DNA of 64,000 bases, taken from NCBI RefSeq assembly GCF_019443405.1, contig NZ_CP080376.1, positions 62,001 to 126,000 of the forward strand, written 5' to 3'. The DNA is from Brevundimonas sp. PAMC22021. GTDB taxonomy: Bacteria > Pseudomonadota > Alphaproteobacteria > Caulobacterales > Caulobacteraceae. This document shows, piece by piece, positions 13,310 to 41,182 of the stretch (positions are counted from its first letter, which is position 1; every line of letters starts with the position of its first letter). The notes below the pieces were generated by a model. That model was not told the DNA's origin. It ran no database searches and worked only from the letters and a program-made list of their open reading frames with translations. The translations under genes and the position numbers were made by a program.

Positions 13310-14422
13310 ATGCCGTTCCTCGTCACGTCCTCGGCTCTCGAGCAGGCTCTTGTCTGGTCGCTGAAGCTCCGGATGTCCATGCCGCGCCGATTGCTGTCGG
13401 CGGCGCTGATCATTCTGATGGTCGCCGTCGCGCGGGCTGCGCTCGGCGCGCTCTTTCTGCCGTTCCTGTTCTACATCCCAGCCGTGCTGGGTGTGACCCT
13501 GATGCTGGGCGCGGCGCCGGGGCTGTTTGGCGCCTTCCTGTCCGTGGCCGCGACGCTCGTCTCCTATCAGATGGAGCAGGGCCGCATCGATGCTGAACGA
13601 TGGACGGCGACGATCCTCTACAGCTTGGTCATGCTCATGCTGATCGGCGTGGCCTACACCCTGCGGCGGATCATCAGGAATCTTCATGCGGTCGCCGACC
13701 GACGCGACCTCATCGATCTTGATCGGGAGGCGAGGGAGGCGGAGCTCAAGCGCGCCGAAGAGGCCAAGCAAGCGGCGCTGTTAGCGGAAGCTGGGCAGCT
13801 GGCGGAGGCGCAGCGCCAGCAGCGTCTGCTCAACGACGAACTCTCCCATCGCCTGAAGAACCAGCTCGCTGTGGTCCAGTCGATCGTGAGCCAGACGCTC
13901 CGCGGCTCGGACGTCGATAAGGCCGCGCGGATTGTCCTCGAGCAGCGTCTCAGAGCGCTCGGCAAGGCCTCGGACGTGCTGACCCGATCCTCGTGGGAGG
14001 CGGCTGACCTCGAAGCGCTTTGTCGAGGAGTCCTTGAGCATGTGGCGGAGGAAGGCCGTGTACGGATTCAGGGGGACCCCGCCCTGTTGGTTCAGCACGT
14101 CGTGATGCCGCTCGCACTGGTGCTGCACGAGTTGGCTACGAACGCGGTGAAGTACGGCGCCCTGTCCAATGCGACGGGCCTGATCGACCTATCGTGGAAG
14201 GTCGAGCCTTCCGCAGAAGGGGAACCGCACTTCCAGCTGCAGTGGAGGGAGCATGGCGGGCCCGAAGTCGTCAAACCGACCCAAAACGGCTTTGGAACCA
14301 AGCTGATCGAGGAGTCTTTGAAGCGGCACTTCGGAGGTGCAGTGGTCGTGGATTACCGATCAGACGGCCTAGTGTTCGAGATCACTTCACCGACGGCGTC
14401 GGTCGTCAGGGTGGGCTCGTGA
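13310..14422 (+). CDS. Membrane-bound HWE-family sensor histidine kinase
   Basis: The 370-residue kinase has an N-terminal membrane region with about four short hydrophobic segments (residues 28-120, DUF4118-like). A coiled linker of about residues 135-172 is rich in E, R and A. The dimerisation helix is LLNDELSHRLKNQLAVVQSI, with phospho-acceptor His180. The ATPase domain has the N-box VLHELATNAVKYGAL (N278) and the W-x-E motif in LQWREHGG (W312, E314), which define the HWE class. The stop overlaps the ATG of the receiver gene (TGATG), so the two form a two-component pair. The N-terminus is not certain; ATGs at 13373 and 13379 are in frame. Confidence 0.85.
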   Translation: MPFLVTSSALEQALVWSLKLRMSMPRRLLSAALIILMVAVARAALGALFLPFLFYIPAVLGVTLMLGAAPGLFGAFLSVAATLVSYQMEQGRIDAERWTATILYSLVMLMLIGVAYTLRRIIRNLHAVADRRDLIDLDREAREAELKRAEEAKQAALLAEAGQLAEAQRQQRLLNDELSHRLKNQLAVVQSIVSQTLRGSDVDKAARIVLEQRLRALGKASDVLTRSSWEAADLEALCRGVLEHVAEEGRVRIQGDPALLVQHVVMPLALVLHELATNAVKYGALSNATGLIDLSWKVEPSAEGEPHFQLQWREHGGPEVVKPTQNGFGTKLIEESLKRHFGGAVVVDYRSDGLVFEITSPTASVVRVGS

Positions 14423-14802
14423 TGGGACAGTCGCAGCCTTATGGAGATCGCTCGATCCTGATCGTCGAGGATCAGTACATCATCCGCATGGAGCTGATGG
14501 ACTTCTTCCGGGAGGAAGGGTTTCGCGTCCTTGAAGCCGACACAGCCGATCAGGCGATCAACATCCTCGCCCACGATGTCGGCGTTCGTGTGGTGCTAAC
14601 GGACATGGAACTGCATGGCGAAATGACCGGCCTGGAGCTCGCGCACATGGTTCGAACGCGGCATCCGCCTACGACCTTGTTTGTGATGTCGACGCGCCAG
14701 GCGCCGGATCAGAGCGCCCTTCCGACACGGACAACCTTCGTCTCCAAGCCCTTAGATCGCCAGCACCTTCTGCGCCAGATCGAGCCTGTGACGCCGAACT
14801 AA
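14422..14802 (+). CDS. Single-domain response regulator paired with the HWE kinase
   Basis: The 126-residue receiver domain has no output domain. The acidic pocket is in ILIVEDQYI, the phospho-acceptor in VVLTDMELHG (D61), the Thr/Ser switch in LFVMSTRQ and the conserved Lys in FVSKPLD (K109). It overlaps the kinase gene by one base. Such receivers in alphaproteobacteria often act in phosphorelays or titrate phosphate for HWE kinases. The downstream partner is unknown. Confidence 0.88.
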   Translation: MGQSQPYGDRSILIVEDQYIIRMELMDFFREEGFRVLEADTADQAINILAHDVGVRVVLTDMELHGEMTGLELAHMVRTRHPPTTLFVMSTRQAPDQSALPTRTTFVSKPLDRQHLLRQIEPVTPN

Positions 14803-22238: not shown

Positions 22239-23258
22239 ATGCATCAGAATTGTATTCGTAAAGACGAACCCGCCGCAGCCACGAGCGCAGCGCTTTTCGA
22301 CCGCAGTGACTTGGCGGTGATAGCGGTCGAGCGTACGCGTATGCCGATGACCGTCAGCGATCCGCGGCTGCCGGACAATCCGATCGTCTGGGCCAATCAG
22401 GCGTTTTTGGACTTGACCGGCTATTCTGCTGACGAAGTGCTCGGGCGGAATGGTCGATTCATGCAGGGGCCGGAAACTGATCCGGCGCACGTACAGCTGC
22501 TCGCGAAATGTCTGGCGTACAATGGGCATGTCACAACCGACATTCTGAACTACCGGAAAGATGGGACATCATTCTGGAATCGACTGTCCATCAGCCCCGT
22601 GCTCGCTGAAGACGGCGATGTGCTGTACTATTTGGGATCGCAGATGGACATGACCGCGCAGCGTCGTGCCCAAGATCTCGCCCAGGTTGAGAAGGCGCTG
22701 CTCCGTGAAGTGGATCACCGCGCCCTCAATGCCCTGATGATTGTTGACAGCTTCATGCGGCAAAGCGACGCCTCAAACCCGGAGCAATATGCGCTCGCGG
22801 TGCAAGGGCGTGTCGGCGCTCTGGCTCGGGCGCATCACCTGCTCGCGCGTGGAGGCTGGTCTCCGATGCCCTTGACGGCTGTCATCGACGCCGAACTTGC
22901 ACTGCTTCCGCAGGACCGCATCAAAGTGTCGGGTGATGCAACTCCCCTACCTGCAGAGATCGTTCAGGCCGTCAGCCTCGTTGTTCATGAACTCGCTAGC
23001 AACGCTGCGCGGCACGGCGCCCTGTCCTTTCCCGGAGGCATGCTGGAGATTACGTGTTTTGCAACGGACGATGGTGAATGCGCCCATCTAAGTTGGCTTG
23101 AAACCGGCGTGGCCTTCAAGCGAGCGGTTCAGCCGAGCTTCGGTCTGCGGATGGTTGCAAGCATCATCGAACGGCAACTCGGCGGCGTCCTTAAGCTCAC
23201 CTGGACGCCGAGCGGTCTCCACGCAAGCGTAGTCATACCTGTGAAATCGTGCTTTTGA
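22239..23258 (+). CDS. LOV-like PAS domain fused to an HWE histidine kinase (photoactive Cys replaced)
   Basis: The 339-residue soluble kinase has an N-terminal LOV-type PAS domain (about residues 35-140) and a C-terminal HWE kinase domain. The LOV core is almost complete: GRNGRFMQGPETDP in place of canonical GRNCRFLQGPDTDP, the FMN-contacting Asn residues in NYRKDG (N104) and FWN (N114), and the Gln of GSQ (Q135). Only the adduct-forming Cys is Gly72 (codon GGT, one change from TGT). The kinase has VDHRALNALMIV (His160), the N-box VVHELASNAARHGAL and LSWLETG (W285, E287). Domain order is that of Brucella-type LOV-HK. It may bind flavin without normal photochemistry, acting as a redox or constitutive sensor. 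No adjacent receiver gene is seen. Confidence 0.88.
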   Translation: MHQNCIRKDEPAAATSAALFDRSDLAVIAVERTRMPMTVSDPRLPDNPIVWANQAFLDLTGYSADEVLGRNGRFMQGPETDPAHVQLLAKCLAYNGHVTTDILNYRKDGTSFWNRLSISPVLAEDGDVLYYLGSQMDMTAQRRAQDLAQVEKALLREVDHRALNALMIVDSFMRQSDASNPEQYALAVQGRVGALARAHHLLARGGWSPMPLTAVIDAELALLPQDRIKVSGDATPLPAEIVQAVSLVVHELASNAARHGALSFPGGMLEITCFATDDGECAHLSWLETGVAFKRAVQPSFGLRMVASIIERQLGGVLKLTWTPSGLHASVVIPVKSCF

Positions 23259-23400
23259 AGCTGGCGGCCGATCCTCAAGGCGGAGCATCCATCCAACTCC
23301 AGCACAGCTCAATGCTGACGATCCCGCAGCGAGCTGGATAGAGGCGCGAAGGTAAAAGTCGTTCCGCTCGACCTCCTTACCGTCTGGGTATTCTTCTAGC

Positions 23401-23628
23401 CATGCCCAGTCTCTGGGGCCGATCGTTGTCGCCGACATCGCCTTCGAGGCGGCCGACCGGGAGATGGTAGACCGCTTCTATCGGACCGCGCTCGAGCATT
23501 GCGGAACGGATGTTGGCGTCCTGGGCCTCCGGCCGAAGTATGATCCGAACTCTTACGGCGCCTTCATCCTGGATCCCGAAGGCAACAAGATCGAAGCTGT
23601 GACCTTTTCCGCGGCATCGGAAGGATGA
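23401..23628 (+). pseudogene. C-terminal fragment of a glyoxalase/VOC-family protein
   Basis: The frame gives IVVADIAFEAADREMVDRFY, then LRPKYDPNSYGAFILDPEGN and KIEAVTFSA to a stop at 23628. This is the second half of a single VOC module: helix before the Fy-AAL pattern, Y-P-YGAFI-DPEGN-IEAV strand pair with the metal-ligand Glu. The N-terminal beta-alpha-beta unit is missing and no start codon fits, so it is a remnant. The frame upstream of 23401 is open but not VOC-like. Confidence 0.55.
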
Positions 23629-31059: not shown

Positions 31060-31467
31060 ATGGTCCTGTCGACGAACCCGTACGCTCTTGTCGTTGATGA
31101 CGATGCGATCATCCGCATCGATGCCGCGCAGATACTCCAAGACGCGGGCTTTCGCACCTACGAAGCCGGGGATGGTGACGAGGCGAAGCTCGTCTTGGAA
31201 GAGTTCGGGGCTAATGTGATCCTGCTGTTTTCGGACGTCGAAATGCCAGGTTCAACCGACGGCTTCGCCCTTGCGCGGTACGCGGCTGAGAAATGGCCGG
31301 AGCTTGAGATTGTCGTGGCCAGCGGGCGTCGGAAACCGGAAGCAGGCGAGATGCCGGATTGCGCGACCTTTATTTCCAAGCCCTTCGACGATCATGTTGT
31401 ACATAGCCATCTCCGGAAAAAACTGCCCGATGGAAAGAAGCCGGAACCGCTGAAGCGGGCCGTTTAA
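31060..31467 (+). CDS. Orphan single-domain response regulator
   Basis: The 135-residue protein is a receiver domain: ALVVDDDAIIRIDAAQILQD with the acidic triad, phospho-acceptor in LLFSDVEMPG (D59), IVVASGR switch and the Lys in FISKPFD (K107). A basic tail (KKLPDGKKPEPLKRAV) follows. There is no output domain and no kinase gene beside it. The two HWE kinases in this window, especially the one at 22239 that lacks a partner, are possible cognates. GTG at 31051 is an alternative start. Confidence 0.85.
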   Translation: MVLSTNPYALVVDDDAIIRIDAAQILQDAGFRTYEAGDGDEAKLVLEEFGANVILLFSDVEMPGSTDGFALARYAAEKWPELEIVVASGRRKPEAGEMPDCATFISKPFDDHVVHSHLRKKLPDGKKPEPLKRAV

Positions 31468-34612: not shown

Positions 34613-37600
34613 CTAGCGGCTGAGGCGGAGGTTGAACATCGCCCTGTGATCGACCTGGTCCTCGGCAATCCCGCTGGTGAGATCCAGACCCCACTCTGCG
34701 GTGCTGTCAGGTCCGAAGCGAGCCCCGTAGCCAAGGCCGAAGATGCTGCGGTTCCTATCGTTCACGGACTCCCAGCGGTAGTCGAAGTGCAGCCCGCCTC
34801 GGCGGCCTTCGGCGTTCAGCCTGCCTCCGAACTGATAACCGCAGACCAGCACGGACCCGTCGGCGGAGGTGTCTTCGCAGAGCAGGCCCGGGCTCAGGCT
34901 GAACAGCGTCCGCCAGTCCGACCCCTCACGATGCGGCAGCGCGAACTCGCTCGTGACGGGGATGCTCAGCCGGGTCATATCGACATCCCCAAGGGCGAAC
35001 TCGATGTCGCGCGCCTCACCGTCGGCGGACGCGACCACATCCATGACGCCGAGGTCTTCCTTGGCGCGCGAGAGGATGGCGTCGGTGGTCAGCTTGACGC
35101 CGGCAAGGTGAACATCGCCGCTCAGCATCGCGCCGTAAAGGCGTCGGTCCGCGCGCGTCTCGCCCGACACCGCAAGTCCGGCCTCGGTCATCTGCAGGTC
35201 GTACCAACCCCGCCCGATCCCGGCGAAGGCGCCGGCTCTCAGGTTCTCTGCGAGGCGCACTCCCACATAGCCGTTCGCCTGCAGCGAGTGGTCGGAGATT
35301 TCACTGTCGATGAAGCCGGGAAGTTCATCGCTCGCGAAGCTGCCCAGAAGACCCACGCCAACCGTGACGTTCGGCTTGAGAGCGCGTTCGACGCGAACCG
35401 AACCCAACCCTCGGCGGCTCCAGCCGCCATCTGTGTGGCTCACCGAAACGGCGGCGTTGGTGAACAGACGGTACGTTTGGTCGCAGCGCGTCCGGTTCCA
35501 GTCGAGCCACGTCTCCTGGTGGGTCTGATCGGCACGCATCCCGCGACCGAGCGTGCCGGCCTCGGGTGTGCTGTGACATTCCGAGCCTTGCCGCACCAGA
35601 CCTTCGTTGAACGCCAGCATGTCGCCAAGACTGCGGAAGGCGTAGCTGCGGATTTCGCCGCGCAACTGCCCGCTGAAGGCGGCGAACCGCGCGCTGACTT
35701 CGTCAACGTCGGTGACGCGCACGGCGACCGTCTGCTGGCTGGCGTTGCCGAGCGCATCGGTCGCCCGAACAACCAGGCGATAGGTGTTGTCGCGATCGAG
35801 ATCGCCCGGGTTCTCGTAATCGGGCGCGGCGATGAAGCTGAGCGCGCCTGTGGTCGGATCCATGGCGAACAGCGCGGCGTCCGCCTCGCCGTCTAACGAC
35901 CAACGGGCGGGCTCGTTGGAAAGGAAGCGCCCGAGCGACTGAGTGCCTTCCCGGATCGATATCTCCGATGTCGCGGCGCCCAGGGCTCCGTCGGGTCCCG
36001 TGATCACCGGTCCGGTGATGTCCACGGCCTGGACGCGAACGATGACCCCGCGCCGAGCGACGCCGCTTGATGCGCCTGTAGCCAGGATGACCAGGGTGTA
36101 GTCATTGTCGCCGTCGGCGTCCGCCGGAGCGTCGAAGTCGGGCGCAGCGATGAACTTCAACTCGCCTGTGCCCGGGTCGATGGTGAAGCGCGCAGCGTCC
36201 GCGCCTCCGGCGATGGACCACCGCACCGATGCGTCGGCGCCCAGAAGGACGACCCGGAGCGATCCGTCTTCCACGCTGAGCACCGCGCCTTCCAAGAGCG
36301 GTCCCTCGGACGTGGTGATTTCCGGCGGGTTGTCGTTCAGGTCCGCGACCGTGACGGTGACAGCCTGGCTCGTGCTCAGGCCGGCATCGTCCGTTGCTGT
36401 GACGGTGATCAGGTAGACGTTGTCTGCGTCGGCGTCCTGCGGAGCTTCGAAGTCGGGGACAGCGACGAACGCTAAGGCGCCGGTCGAAGCGTCGATCAGG
36501 AACCTGGCGGCGTCCGGACCGCCGCTGATCGACCAGGTCACGCGCCGGTTGGCGTTGAAGGCAGCAACCGTGGTCGCGGTCTCATCGACCCGGATTGCGG
36601 TGTTTGACGGAGCAGCTGCGCCGTCGGGAGCGGTGATGACCGGAGGGGTGTCGATCACGTCCAAAACCGTGACGTTCAGGGTCAGGGCGGCGACGCCTCC
36701 GGCGTCGGTCGCGCTGGCGACGACGACGTAGACGTTGTCGACGTCGTCGTCGGCAGGCGCCTCGAAGTCCGGTGCGGATACAAACGTCAGCCCGCCCGTG
36801 GCGGCTTCGATGGCGAAACGTCCGGCGTCGGGGCCGCCGGAGATCGACCATGTGACCGCCCGGCTGGCGCCGAGAGTCGTCACCGGCGTTACGCCCTCTT
36901 TGATCGAGAGGGACGCGACTGAGGCCCCCGGAGCCGCTCCGGGCGCCGTGATGACGGGCAGTCCTTCCAGCACGTCCTGAACGGTGACGGTGACGATCTG
37001 AGCCGACGTCTGGCCACCGGCTCCAGTCGCTGTGGCGTTCAGCAGATAGTCGTTGTCAGCGTCAGCGTCCGTCGGCCCTTCGAAGTCCGGCGGCGCCATG
37101 AAGCTGATCACACCCGTCGCCGGATCGATCGCGAACGCACTGGCGTCGACGCCCCCGGTGATCGACCAGGTCACAGCCGTATCCGCGCTTAGCGTGGTCA
37201 CCGCCGTCTGGTTCTCATCAACGGACGTCGCCGCGTTGGCCGCGCCTGCGCCGCCGCTGGGGCCGCTTATGACCGGTGCGGTGTCTATGATGTTCAGGAC
37301 TGTGACGGTGAGCGCTTGCGTGGCCGCCGTCCCATTGGCGTCGGTCGCGGTCACACGCACGAGGTAGGCATTGTCGCCGTCAGCATCGGCTGGTGCTTCA
37401 AAGTCTGGCGTCGAGACAAAACTCAGCACGCCGGTCGCCCCGTCAATCGTGAACTTGCCGGCGTCAGCGCCACCGGAGATCGACCAGGTCACCGGTCGAT
37501 TGGCGTTGAAGGTCGCTGCCGCTGTCTGGTTCTCATCAACGGACACCACCGACGCCGACGCGCCGGCGCTCCCCCCTGGGCCGGTGATGATGGGCGAGCC

Positions 37601-40600
37601 CTCCAGCACGTCCAGCACCGTGACGGTCGCGGTTTGAGCAGCCGTCGCCCCGTTGGTGTCGGTCGCGGAGACGGTCACGACATAGGCGTTGTCGGAGTTT
37701 GCATCTGCCGGCGCTTCGTAGTCGGGCGCCGAGACAAAGGTCAGCGCGCCGGTGGCGTCGATGGTGAACTTGCCGGCGTCGGCGCCGCCGGAGATCGACC
37801 AGGTCACCGGTCGATTGGCGCTGAAGGTCGTGGTGGCCGACTGGTTCTCGTTCACGGACACCACCGACGCCGACGCGCCGGCGCTCCCCCCTGGGCCGGT
37901 GATGATGGGCGAGCCCTCCAGCACGTCCAGCACCGTGACGGTGGCGGTTTGAGCAGCCGTCGCCCCGTTGGTGTCGGTCGCGGAGACGATCACGACATAG
38001 GCGTTGTCGGAGTTTGCATCTGCCGGCGCTTCGTAGTCGGGCGCCGAGACAAAGGTCAGCGCGCCGGTGGCGTCGATGGTGAACTTGCCGGCGTCGGCGC
38101 CGCCGGAGATCGACCAGGTCACCGGTCGATTGGCGCTGAAGGTCGTGGTGGCCGACTGGTTCTCGTTCACGGACACCGCCGAAGTCGCCGCTCCCGTGCT
38201 CCCGCCAGGACCGGTGATAATGGGCGAGCCCTCCAGCACGTCCAGCACTGTGATGGTCACGGTCTGGGTGGACGTCAAACCCCCGACCCCAGTGCCGGTG
38301 ACGGCGAGCCGGTAGATGTTGTCGCCGTCAGCATCAGCGGGCGCCTCATAGTCGGCTGCCGCGATAAAGGTGATGGAGCCTGTCGCGGCGTCGATCGCAA
38401 ATCGCGCCGCGTCGACGCCGCCGGTGATCGACCAGGCGACGGCTTGATCCGCTGTCAGCGTGGCGACCGTCGCCTGGTTCTCGTTGACCGATGTGGCCGA
38501 GCTCGTCGCGCCCGCGCCGCCGCTGGGGCCGGTGAGAACGGGTGCGGTGTCGAGAAGATCGAGAATCGTGACGGTCAGGGTCTGAGCCGCCGTCGCCCCG
38601 TTCGCGCCCGTTGCGGAGACGATCACGACGTAGGCATTATCAGCGTCTGCATCAGTTGGCGCTTCATAGTCTGGAGCCGAGACAAAGGTCAGAGCGCCGG
38701 TCGCGCCGTTGACCGTGAACTTGCCCGCATCAGCGCCTCCGGTGATGGACCAGGTGACCGGTCGATCGACGCTGAGGGTCGCCGCCGCCGTCTGGTTCTC
38801 GTTGACCGACACGGCCGACGTCGACGCTCCGGCGCCCCCGCCTGGACCGGTGATGACGGGAGAGCCGTCCAGAACGTCCACCACCGAGACGGTCAGCGTC
38901 TGGCTCCCGGTCCGTCCGCCTGCTCCTGTTGCGGTGACGACGAGCAGATAGCTGTTGTTTGCGCCCGTGTCCGTTGGGGCCTCGTAATCAGGGGCGGACA
39001 CAAAGGTGATGGCTCCCGTCGCGGGGTCGATGGCGAACCGGCTATCATCGTCGCCGCCGGCGATCGACCAGGTGACCGTCTGATCCGCGCCCAGCGTGGC
39101 GACCGCCGTCTGGTTTTCGTTGACCGACGTCGCTGAGCTCGCGGCGCCCGCGCCGCCGCTGGGGCCGGTGATGACAGGTGCGGTGTCGAGGAGATCGCGA
39201 ACCGTGACGGTCAGCGTCTGGCTTGTGGTCAATCCGCCGGTTCCGGTCGCGGTGACGGCCAGCACATAGGCGTTGTCCACATTCGCGTCTGTCGGCGCTT
39301 CGTAGTCAGGCGCCGCAACAAAGGTGATGACGCCGGTTGCGGCATCGATGGCGAAGCGGCTCGCGTCCGCTCCTCCGGTGATCGACCAGGTGACCGTCTG
39401 ATCCGCGCTCAGCGCGGCGACCGCCGTCTGGTTTTCGTCGACCAAGGTCGCCGCGGCAGCTGCCCCCGCACCGCCGCTGGGGCCGGTGATGATGGGCGCG
39501 GTGTCGAGCAGATCGCGAACCGTGACGGTCACCGTCTGGGTCGCGGTCAGCCCGCCGGCGCCGGTCGCGGTGACGGCCAGCACGTAGGCGTTGTCCACAT
39601 TCGCATCTGTGGGAGCTTCGTAGTCGGGTGCGGCGACAAAGGTGACGACGCCGGTTGCGGGATCGATCGCGAAGCGGCTCGCGTCCGCCCCTCCGGTGAT
39701 CGACCAGGTGACCGTCTGATCCGCGTTCAGCGTGGCGACCGCCGTCTGGTTTTCGTCCACCGAGGTCGCCGCGGCAGCTGCCCCTGCGTCGCCGCTGGGG
39801 CCGGTGATGACGGGTGCGGCGTCCATGACGTCGAGGACTGTGACGGCTACCGTCTGACTTGCGGTGAGCCCGCCCGCATCGGTCGCTGTAACCACCAGAG
39901 CATAGATGTTGTCGGTGTTGGCGTCGGAGGGGTCTTCAAAGTCTGGCGCTGCGACAAAGGTCAGCGCACCGCCCGTGCTGTTGATTGCGAATTTGGCGGC
40001 GTCAGCGCCGCCGGTGATCGACCAGGTCACGGATCGGTTGGCGCCAAAGGCCGCCGCCGTTGTCTGGTTCTCGTTGACCGACACCGAGGACGACGCCGCG
40101 CCGGCGCCGGCGCTGGGCCCTGTGATGATCGGCGCAGCGGCCGTGACGTTGAAGGTGAGATCGATAGCGCTCGACCAGTTGCCCGCTGCGTCGCCGGCCT
40201 GAACCGCATAGGTGAAGCTGTTTGGCGCTGTGTCGTAATCGTTCTGAGGAACGCCAGCCGACGCGCCCGCCGGGGTCAGCCGTACCTGGCCGGCGGAGTT
40301 GATGGCGTAGTAGCCGTCGCTGCTGGTCTGGGTTCCGGTGGGGGCGAACCGATAGGCGGTGACCCCGATGGCGTCGGAGGCGGCTACTGTCCCGATCGCC
40401 GCGTTGGCGGGTCGATCTTCGACATAGGAAAAGGTCTGGCCGGCAGCCACGACCGGAGCCGTGGTGTCGGCCACCACATTGTTGAAGTTGTAGCCGATGC
40501 TGAAATCGAGGCCGAAGTAGGCGGCGCCGCTCGCGCCCGTGTCGCCGAGCGAAACGGTGACGCTGGAGGCGCTGGTATAGAAGACCCGGGCGCGTATCCT

Positions 40601-41182
40601 ATTGAAGTCGTCGCTACCCTCAACGAAGTTCTGGTTGCTGCCGATGGTGGTGATAAAGCGGGTGCCTCCACCTACGCTCTGTCGGACGACTTGGGTGCCC
40701 GTGGCCAGCGAGAAGCTGGCGAACCCATTGAAGTCGGTATACTGGCGTCCGCCAGCGCTGCCGCCCGACCCGTCCAGATCGTAGGTGTTGGTGTAGAAGT
40801 TCTGCAGCTCGACGGGTTGTCCGTTCGAAAGGAAGTCGATGCGGAAGGTCGCGCTGCCGCCAGCGGCGGAGAGCTGCAGATTGGGCTGGAGAAACGAGGA
40901 CTGGGCGTAGGGCTGGCTTGTTGAGTCAAAGGTCGTCAGCGTCGCTCGGTCGAGGTTCGTCAGCGTGACGCGGGCGTCGATCTGGACGCCGCCGATGTTG
41001 ATGACGTTGGCGTAGTCCCGGGACGAGCCCACGCCGGTGCCCGTGCCGGTCCCGCTGCCGGCAAAGCTCAGAGGGGCGCCTGCAACGTCGAAAGCGGTCT
41101 GCGCCGCGACCGGTTCAGAAAGGCCTGCGGCGAGCACCACCAACGAGGCGGAGCACAGCCAGCCCCGGATGTTCGAACGCAT
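34613..41182 (-). CDS. Giant secreted cadherin-like repeat protein with C-terminal beta-barrel
   Basis: The 2189-residue protein starts with a signal peptide (cut after EPVAAQ, about residue 28). A unique beta-rich N-terminal domain (to about 245) and one atypical domain with YVEDRPANAAIGT follow. Then come 14 tandem domains of about 105 residues, each beginning like PVITGPSGGAGA, with core VTWSITGGADASRFAID and ending APDYEAPTDANVDNAYVLAV then VTVLD. These are cadherin/CHDL-type immunoglobulin-like repeats with Asp-rich calcium-type turns. The last 370 residues have two Cys (SECHSTP, NRTRCDQTY) and alternating strands ending FNLRLSR, which fit an outer-membrane barrel. It is likely a surface adhesin exported by the autotransporter route, but the end lacks the usual terminal aromatic residue. 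Neighbours give no clue to the target. Confidence 0.85.
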   Translation of the reverse strand: MRSNIRGWLCSASLVVLAAGLSEPVAAQTAFDVAGAPLSFAGSGTGTGTGVGSSRDYANVINIGGVQIDARVTLTNLDRATLTTFDSTSQPYAQSSFLQPNLQLSAAGGSATFRIDFLSNGQPVELQNFYTNTYDLDGSGGSAGGRQYTDFNGFASFSLATGTQVVRQSVGGGTRFITTIGSNQNFVEGSDDFNRIRARVFYTSASSVTVSLGDTGASGAAYFGLDFSIGYNFNNVVADTTAPVVAAGQTFSYVEDRPANAAIGTVAASDAIGVTAYRFAPTGTQTSSDGYYAINSAGQVRLTPAGASAGVPQNDYDTAPNSFTYAVQAGDAAGNWSSAIDLTFNVTAAAPIITGPSAGAGAASSSVSVNENQTTAAAFGANRSVTWSITGGADAAKFAINSTGGALTFVAAPDFEDPSDANTDNIYALVVTATDAGGLTASQTVAVTVLDVMDAAPVITGPSGDAGAAAAATSVDENQTAVATLNADQTVTWSITGGADASRFAIDPATGVVTFVAAPDYEAPTDANVDNAYVLAVTATGAGGLTATQTVTVTVRDLLDTAPIITGPSGGAGAAAAATLVDENQTAVAALSADQTVTWSITGGADASRFAIDAATGVITFVAAPDYEAPTDANVDNAYVLAVTATGTGGLTTSQTLTVTVRDLLDTAPVITGPSGGAGAASSATSVNENQTAVATLGADQTVTWSIAGGDDDSRFAIDPATGAITFVSAPDYEAPTDTGANNSYLLVVTATGAGGRTGSQTLTVSVVDVLDGSPVITGPGGGAGASTSAVSVNENQTAAATLSVDRPVTWSITGGADAGKFTVNGATGALTFVSAPDYEAPTDADADNAYVVIVSATGANGATAAQTLTVTILDLLDTAPVLTGPSGGAGATSSATSVNENQATVATLTADQAVAWSITGGVDAARFAIDAATGSITFIAAADYEAPADADGDNIYRLAVTGTGVGGLTSTQTVTITVLDVLEGSPIITGPGGSTGAATSAVSVNENQSATTTFSANRPVTWSISGGADAGKFTIDATGALTFVSAPDYEAPADANSDNAYVVIVSATDTNGATAAQTATVTVLDVLEGSPIITGPGGSAGASASVVSVNENQSATTTFSANRPVTWSISGGADAGKFTIDATGALTFVSAPDYEAPADANSDNAYVVTVSATDTNGATAAQTATVTVLDVLEGSPIITGPGGSAGASASVVSVDENQTAAATFNANRPVTWSISGGADAGKFTIDGATGVLSFVSTPDFEAPADADGDNAYLVRVTATDANGTAATQALTVTVLNIIDTAPVISGPSGGAGAANAATSVDENQTAVTTLSADTAVTWSITGGVDASAFAIDPATGVISFMAPPDFEGPTDADADNDYLLNATATGAGGQTSAQIVTVTVQDVLEGLPVITAPGAAPGASVASLSIKEGVTPVTTLGASRAVTWSISGGPDAGRFAIEAATGGLTFVSAPDFEAPADDDVDNVYVVVASATDAGGVAALTLNVTVLDVIDTPPVITAPDGAAAPSNTAIRVDETATTVAAFNANRRVTWSISGGPDAARFLIDASTGALAFVAVPDFEAPQDADADNVYLITVTATDDAGLSTSQAVTVTVADLNDNPPEITTSEGPLLEGAVLSVEDGSLRVVLLGADASVRWSIAGGADAARFTIDPGTGELKFIAAPDFDAPADADGDNDYTLVILATGASSGVARRGVIVRVQAVDITGPVITGPDGALGAATSEISIREGTQSLGRFLSNEPARWSLDGEADAALFAMDPTTGALSFIAAPDYENPGDLDRDNTYRLVVRATDALGNASQQTVAVRVTDVDEVSARFAAFSGQLRGEIRSYAFRSLGDMLAFNEGLVRQGSECHSTPEAGTLGRGMRADQTHQETWLDWNRTRCDQTYRLFTNAAVSVSHTDGGWSRRGLGSVRVERALKPNVTVGVGLLGSFASDELPGFIDSEISDHSLQANGYVGVRLAENLRAGAFAGIGRGWYDLQMTEAGLAVSGETRADRRLYGAMLSGDVHLAGVKLTTDAILSRAKEDLGVMDVVASADGEARDIEFALGDVDMTRLSIPVTSEFALPHREGSDWRTLFSLSPGLLCEDTSADGSVLVCGYQFGGRLNAEGRRGGLHFDYRWESVNDRNRSIFGLGYGARFGPDSTAEWGLDLTSGIAEDQVDHRAMFNLRLSR
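37590..38240. repeat. Near-identical 315-base tandem units inside the giant gene
   Basis: Bases 37681-37866 and 37996-38181 appear identical, and the flanks differ at only a few positions, giving a 315-base (105-codon) period over about 650 bases. They encode repeats 7 to 9 of the adhesin; other repeats are much more diverged. Recent duplication or gene conversion is the simplest explanation. Confidence 0.8.

Follow-up and report, generated by a model that had tools for sequence, protein, structure and literature searches.

How could a LOV kinase signal without the cysteine that forms the flavin C4a adduct in canonical LOV photoreceptors? The question is raised by the gene at 22239-23258 of the window, by which we mean the whole 64,000-nucleotide stretch of Brevundimonas sp. 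PAMC22021 DNA that was analysed. It encodes a LOV-HWE histidine kinase of 339 aa (P0001) with glycine at the adduct position, residue 72. An earlier note, made from the sequence alone, had favoured a changed mode of sensing over decay.

An intact LOV-HWE kinase with glycine at the adduct position

The open reading frame is intact, and its ATG start is supported by the N-terminal stretch, which aligns with relatives. All features of P0001 given below lie on the forward strand. The LOV (PAS) domain spans residues 21-145 (22299-22673), with a Pfam PAS_9 match at residues 45-140, and is followed by an HWE_HK dimerisation/phosphoacceptor domain (22707-22937; Pfam HWE_HK at residues 157-233, with His160 at 22716-22718), whose PF07536 score of 54.9 bits passed the gathering cut-off of 22.8 bits. 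The HWE-type ATPase (CA) region (22941-23246) was assigned by its sequence motifs, the N-box HELASNA and W-L-E, the Pfam match to HATPase_c_2 being sub-threshold (21.4 versus 27.4 bits). Among solved structures the top match was 6ph4 (E 7.6e-58), which we take to be Brucella LOV-HK and which matched over residues 21-154 in the LOV part, while 4r3a, presumably Erythrobacter EL346, covered residues 33-335. These Pfam and structure matches uphold the view of P0001 as a LOV-type sensor joined to an HWE kinase, and the reading frame, the coordinates and Gly72, encoded by GGT at 22452-22454, were all as the earlier note had them.

The kinase half carries what we take to define an HWE kinase, namely a phosphoacceptor His (H160), the His, Glu and Asn of the N-box (H250, E251 and N255) and W-x-E (W286 and E288). 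H160, R161, N164, E251, N255, G260 and E288 are present in all 238 sampled relatives described below, and H250, W286 and G302 in 214, 207 and 237 of them, respectively; P0001 has every one of these residues. With key residues shared by 207-238 of the 238 relatives and present here, the claim that all HWE motifs are kept was confirmed.

Glycine is found in none of the sampled relatives

Relatives were collected in three protein searches, each listing 120 proteins; as two of the three scored 8000 candidates only, the sample is biased towards similar proteins. After P0002, a shorter record of the same gene, had been set aside, pooling gave 250 different proteins including P0001, from which 11 were dropped before counting (P0122-P0131, with a LOV domain but without a matching kinase half, and P0151, of 225 aa), leaving 238 relatives. 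In these, the adduct column holds 234 Cys, four Pro and no Gly; with Cys in that column for 234 of the 238, Gly72 is no alignment artefact. The first search taken separately gave 116 Cys and three Pro among the 119 proteins listed, once the two entries of the window itself had been set aside, and of 42 LOV matches read from genomic loci, those of the genus and family searches included, 41 have Cys and the only Gly is that of P0001 itself. The nearest relatives among the matches listed are 51-53% identical over the full length, all with Cys, and 65-66% identical over the LOV region; no relative above about 53% identity was among the matches listed. A clade of kinases sharing the NGRF variant, which the earlier note had proposed to look for, was not found, Gly72 occurring in 0 of the 238 sampled homologues. 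No natural Gly-LOV HWE kinase was found in a search of the open literature that covered titles and abstract openings, with subscription journals and supplements outside it. Its sequence marks P0001 as an intact LOV-HWE kinase that is naturally Cys-less, the sole Gly case among the sampled relatives.

A base-calling error at this one position would also yield such a singleton, as GGT is one base from the Cys codon TGT and no second record of the P0001 protein was among the matches listed. We regard it as very improbable: the genome assembled into one 2.9-Mb contig, scored 99.94% complete, and other conserved positions differ as well, among them Ala89, whose codon GCG would need at least two base changes to encode Arg.

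The flavin pocket is conserved in large part

The LOV motif of P0001 reads GRN-G-RFMQGPETDP. Alignment with the relatives showed that N71, R73, Q76, N104, N114 and Q135 are kept, including the flavin-ring residues Asn104 (22548-22550; 238/238 sampled relatives) and Asn114 (22578-22580; 230/238) and the signal-relay Gln135 (22641-22643; 213/238). To this extent the flavin contacts are retained as the earlier note had stated, but Ala89 (22503-22505), where 223 of the 238 relatives have Arg, and Thr38 (22350-22352), where 207 have Val, deviate too, so that its phrase 'loss of only the Cys' was too strong. The Arg at position 89 is presumably a flavin-phosphate contact, R467 in AsLOV2. Since Arg or Lys is absent from this position in 12 of the 234 Cys relatives too, its loss need not abolish flavin binding. 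Met75 replaces Leu, and Met is also found in 18 of the 234 Cys relatives.

The only cysteine within residues 21-145 is Cys91, and a moved cysteine that forms the adduct from there could in principle replace the lost one: in AsLOV2, cysteines relocated to F494 and Q513 are described as giving a photocycle that involves a minor fraction of the protein (PMC3903614). By alignment, though, position 91 lies outside the three AsLOV2 relocation sites tested there, two of which are equivalent to Leu116 and Gln135 of P0001. Moreover, Cys91 occurs in three of the 119 first-search relatives, all with the usual Cys, while the non-Cys ones differ at 91, and we give this explanation hardly any credence.

Candidate electron donors to the flavin in iLOV are Y416, Y459, W467 and Y484 (PMC5645311, in the text available). 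Counted back from the conserved Gln, Q489 in iLOV, they map to Tyr62, Tyr105, Trp113 and Tyr130 of P0001 (within 22422-22628). As each of the four positions is common among the Cys relatives (205-232 of 234), these putative donors indicate a capacity and not an adaptation.

Origin and genomic setting

Among 101 genomes of the genus, 40 had a match at E 1e-30, the gene's own at 1.8e-229 and the next best at 1.0e-41; the remaining matches either covered the LOV parts of other proteins or were longer, at about 31-41% identity, and no match comparable to P0001 was found in the 100 sampled genus-mates. At 1e-60, 15 of 299 family genomes had a match, with none in the genus besides the window's own. 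A class-wide protein search at E 1e-70 (385 genomes, at most five candidates scored in each) returned the own match only and says little about rarity. The 6.5-kb stretch around the gene gave short scattered matches only in 60 relatives, with four candidates scored in each. The GC3 of the gene is 0.65, whereas seven other genes in the window have 0.80-0.91; among ORFs of eleven 20-kb stretches, values as low were found in five of 150 when the choice of ORFs favoured high GC3, and in 12 of 114 when the longest ORFs, some of which are perhaps not genes, were taken. Horizontal acquisition of the gene is plausible on these sequence comparisons.

Response regulators are encoded in the window at 14422-14802 and 31063-31467, neither of which adjoins the P0001 gene. 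At 13310-14802 (forward strand), another HWE kinase gene precedes one for a single-domain response regulator, and the two are likely to be a two-component pair. Just downstream of the P0001 gene, the open stretch 23380-23628 (forward strand) resembles by eye the end of a VOC/glyoxalase protein and is possibly a remnant; 23404-23628 had no Pfam match. A 2189-aa ORF on the reverse strand (34613-41182) contains many similar repeats ('ITGPSGGAGAA...') and ends, by eye, in an outer-membrane-barrel-like part. Elsewhere in the genome, an HWE-kinase-like match at G000:C1:25892-26836 (L007) contains one in-frame TAG and is perhaps a broken gene, and a BLUF domain, another type of flavin blue-light receptor, was detected above cut-off (88.4 bits) at G000:C1:2817802-2818083 (L164).

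Constraint or decay of the LOV half

Branch lengths of the two halves were compared on a fixed tree of 239 sequences, long tips (n = 126) being those with a kinase branch above 0.3 or a LOV branch above 0.2. The terminal branch of P0001 measures 0.76 for the LOV half and 1.16 for the kinase half, a ratio of 0.66 that ranks 36th from the low end of the long tips, whose median is 0.94. As the ratios of the four Pro variants are 0.90-1.24, a low ratio is no general mark of Cys-less kinases. Because the LOV half is not accelerated relative to the kinase half, long-standing decay is unlikely, and on this point the earlier note's 'rather than decay' was supported. The terminal branch of P0001 is long (0.894, second longest of the 239); the loss of Cys could be late on it, and most of the constraint seen in the LOV half may be older than the loss.

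Two counts of deviating residues were made. Where at least 85% of the first hit set share a residue, P0001 deviates at 10 of 66 positions in the LOV half, the most of 120 sequences, and at four of 47 in the kinase half, where 13 of the 120, P0001 included, have at least four; at the conserved pocket positions of this first count, residue 72 included, it deviates at five of 14. The second count, from which residue 72 was omitted, took in 239 sequences and used 19 pocket positions selected by flavin contacts in AsLOV2; the first is the more sensitive of the two to the long branch of P0001. In the second, P0001 has two rare residues of 19, as have 36 of the 239 sequences, and six have three. General decay of the flavin pocket was rejected, at least two rare pocket residues being found in 42 of the 239 sequences, P0001 included. 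The rate of rare residues in the pocket is 0.105 in P0001 versus 0.037 pooled over the Cys relatives; over the rest of the LOV half it is 0.124 versus 0.076, an excess smaller than in the pocket, and no difference between pocket and rest is seen within P0001 itself (Fisher p 1.0).

A recently inactivated photoreceptor, in which Cys was lost by a single base change, perhaps after transfer, and whose gene is on its way out, would account for the GGT codon, for the low GC3 together with the lack of a comparable match in the 100 sampled genus-mates, for the long terminal branch and for the 10 deviations at conserved LOV positions. Yet the reading frame is intact, the kinase motifs are retained and the LOV half is not accelerated against the kinase half, and we consider such an inactivation improbable.

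A weightier rival is a constitutive or light-blind kinase that retains the PAS fold, with or without flavin, does not switch with flavin state and is controlled through expression or another ligand. The absence of Cys and the pocket changes Arg89 to Ala and Val38 to Thr point that way, as does the score of P0001 in NF052306, the NCBIfam model of blue-light-activated histidine kinases, which at 418.6 bits lies under the curated cut-off of 450 passed by all eight comparators. The four Pro variants are among these comparators, and since they pass without an adduct Cys, caution is due with the gene name 'blue-light-activated'. Light-insensitive PAS-HWE kinases are, moreover, presented in the available text of PMC10359499 as established relatives of EL346, and the BLUF domain provides the genome with another receptor domain of the blue-light type. 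Against light-blindness, P0001 retains the Asn residues and Gln, which would be expected to count only next to a flavin, and its tally of rare pocket residues, residue 72 aside, is unremarkable; on balance this explanation seems to us rather unlikely.

Proline variants and other Cys-less LOV domains

Four database LOV-HWE kinases, P0042, P0053, P0110 and P0181, have Pro at the adduct site and share with P0001 both the architecture and the absence of the adduct Cys. They differ from it in that Gln135 is lost in all four and Tyr56 is present in three, whereas P0001 keeps Gln135 and Phe56. Gln135 is lost in 21 and Phe56 present in 232 of the 234 Cys relatives. The Pro variants are a natural double loss, of Cys and Gln. 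They cluster on the full-length tree (support 0.908) and on the LOV-only tree (0.856), but not on the kinase-only tree, and are probably one lineage, so that Fisher values for the Gln135/Tyr56 comparison overstate independence. On a tree of 70 of the 239 sequences with residue 72 omitted, the five Cys-less proteins need three changes; P0001 and the Pro variants fall into separate starred sets, and the starred branches force at least two changes, while an AU test on the same tree does not reject a single clade of P0001 and the Pro variants (p 0.144).

Position 56 of P0001, a near-flavin site 16 residues before the adduct site, is Phe and not Trp; we take it to be F41 of Chlamydomonas LOV1, and by distance it corresponds to Trp172 of BAT-LOV, where the adduct site is Pro188. 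In the parts available of the respective reports, a change of F41 to Tyr favours flavin photoreduction in Chlamydomonas LOV1 (PMC5645311) and Trp172 lowers or slows it in BAT-LOV (PMC4682037).

For other architectures, the pattern GRN-[G/A/P/R]-RF-x-QG-x-x-T, which leaves His, Ser and Trp replacements outside, was scanned over a genome collection of 84,980 species. It matched 90 stretches, and the 80 listed comprise 69 Pro, six Ala, four Gly and one Arg. Four of the Pro rows seem to be borderline motifs or to match by chance; in the other 65 the residue 16 places ahead of the adduct position is Trp in 26 and Phe in 39. The Gly row L087 was rejected, as it does not look like a LOV domain, leaving three credible Gly LOVs among the 80 of 90 listed: a PAS-GAF protein of an Elusimicrobia MAG, cut off at the locus end, a GGDEF-EAL protein of Billgrantia and a HisKA hybrid kinase of an Acetobacteraceae MAG. 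An HWE domain was found in none of these three. Two Halomonas proteins that carry Ala at the adduct site share 52-60% identity with the Billgrantia one (L106, L068 and L079 form this group), so that a Cys-less LOV persists across species there. Outside LOV-HWE kinases, Gly LOV domains are sporadic.

A possible flavin-redox mechanism

The explanation that we prefer, at a probability of roughly 0.45, is that P0001 is a natural Cys-less LOV-HWE kinase, still selected as a folded, flavin-binding sensor, that signals by flavin reduction and N5 protonation. The LOV domain is predicted to bind flavin. As no adduct can form at residue 72, the signal would, as in Cys-less VVD and YF1, be reduction of the flavin to an N5-protonated form, driven either chemically or by blue light with internal Tyr/Trp residues as donors. 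Gln135 might then pass the flavin state on via the beta sheet to the phosphoacceptor helix, with a change in autophosphorylation at His160 as the result. In both VVD and YF1 without Cys, the flavin is described as photoreduced to the neutral semiquinone with signalling kept, since N5 protonation is common to the adduct and semiquinone states, and the natural Cys-less BAT-LOV as changing conformation on chemical reduction while photoreducing slowly (PMC4682037, in the sections available).

The kept Gln135 fits a relay of N5 protonation, although the relay Gln is described as not strictly needed (PMC9098866). The redox reading is supported by Phe56, in place of the Trp that slows photoreduction in BAT-LOV, and weakened by the loss of the conserved Arg89, the excess of rare pocket residues and the absence of Gly from all sampled relatives. 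Semiquinone yields vary, AsLOV2 C450A being described as poor at NSQ formation (PMC9098866) and iLOV as naturally not photoreducible (PMC5645311), both in the text available, with BAT-LOV a further case, so that the step from the sequence of P0001 to its sensing is one that we infer. More tentatively, P0001 may be a redox or photoreduction sensor acting via the neutral semiquinone and the Gln relay, and LOV-HWE kinases may have dropped adduct chemistry more than once, in the Pro variants with Gln lost and mostly Tyr56, and in the Gly line with Gln kept. If P0001 does signal, adduct-free LOV signalling becomes testable in a natural histidine kinase and not in an engineered mutant, with the natural Pro variants of the same architecture as a comparison set.

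Comparison with known systems

Brucella LOV-HK (6ph4) resembles P0001 in having a LOV domain followed by an HWE kinase, but its adduct position holds Cys, and the two matched stretches are separated by about 100 residues, presumably a further PAS domain. Kinases of the EL346 type likewise combine a single N-terminal LOV domain with an HWE/HisKA2 kinase; the four examined by spectroscopy photocycle with flavin, as far as the available text of PMC10359499 describes, whereas P0001 is without the adduct Cys. Closest in chemistry are the natural Cys-less LOV domains reported by Yee et al. in 2015 (PMC4682037), which in the text available amount to about 70 entries, with replacements that include Ala, His and Pro, and which share with P0001 the conserved LOV residues and the absence of the adduct Cys. 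That study asked for no Cys at the adduct position, where P0001 has Gly72, and for at least nine of 10 other conserved residues, of which its available text names nine; P0001 has eight of the nine named, with Met75 for Leu. BAT-LOV, the example studied there, carries Pro and belongs to an archaeal regulator, whereas P0001 joins Gly to an HWE kinase effector. Natural Cys-less LOV domains were already known in 2015, and to these P0001 adds a Gly case in a LOV-HWE kinase.
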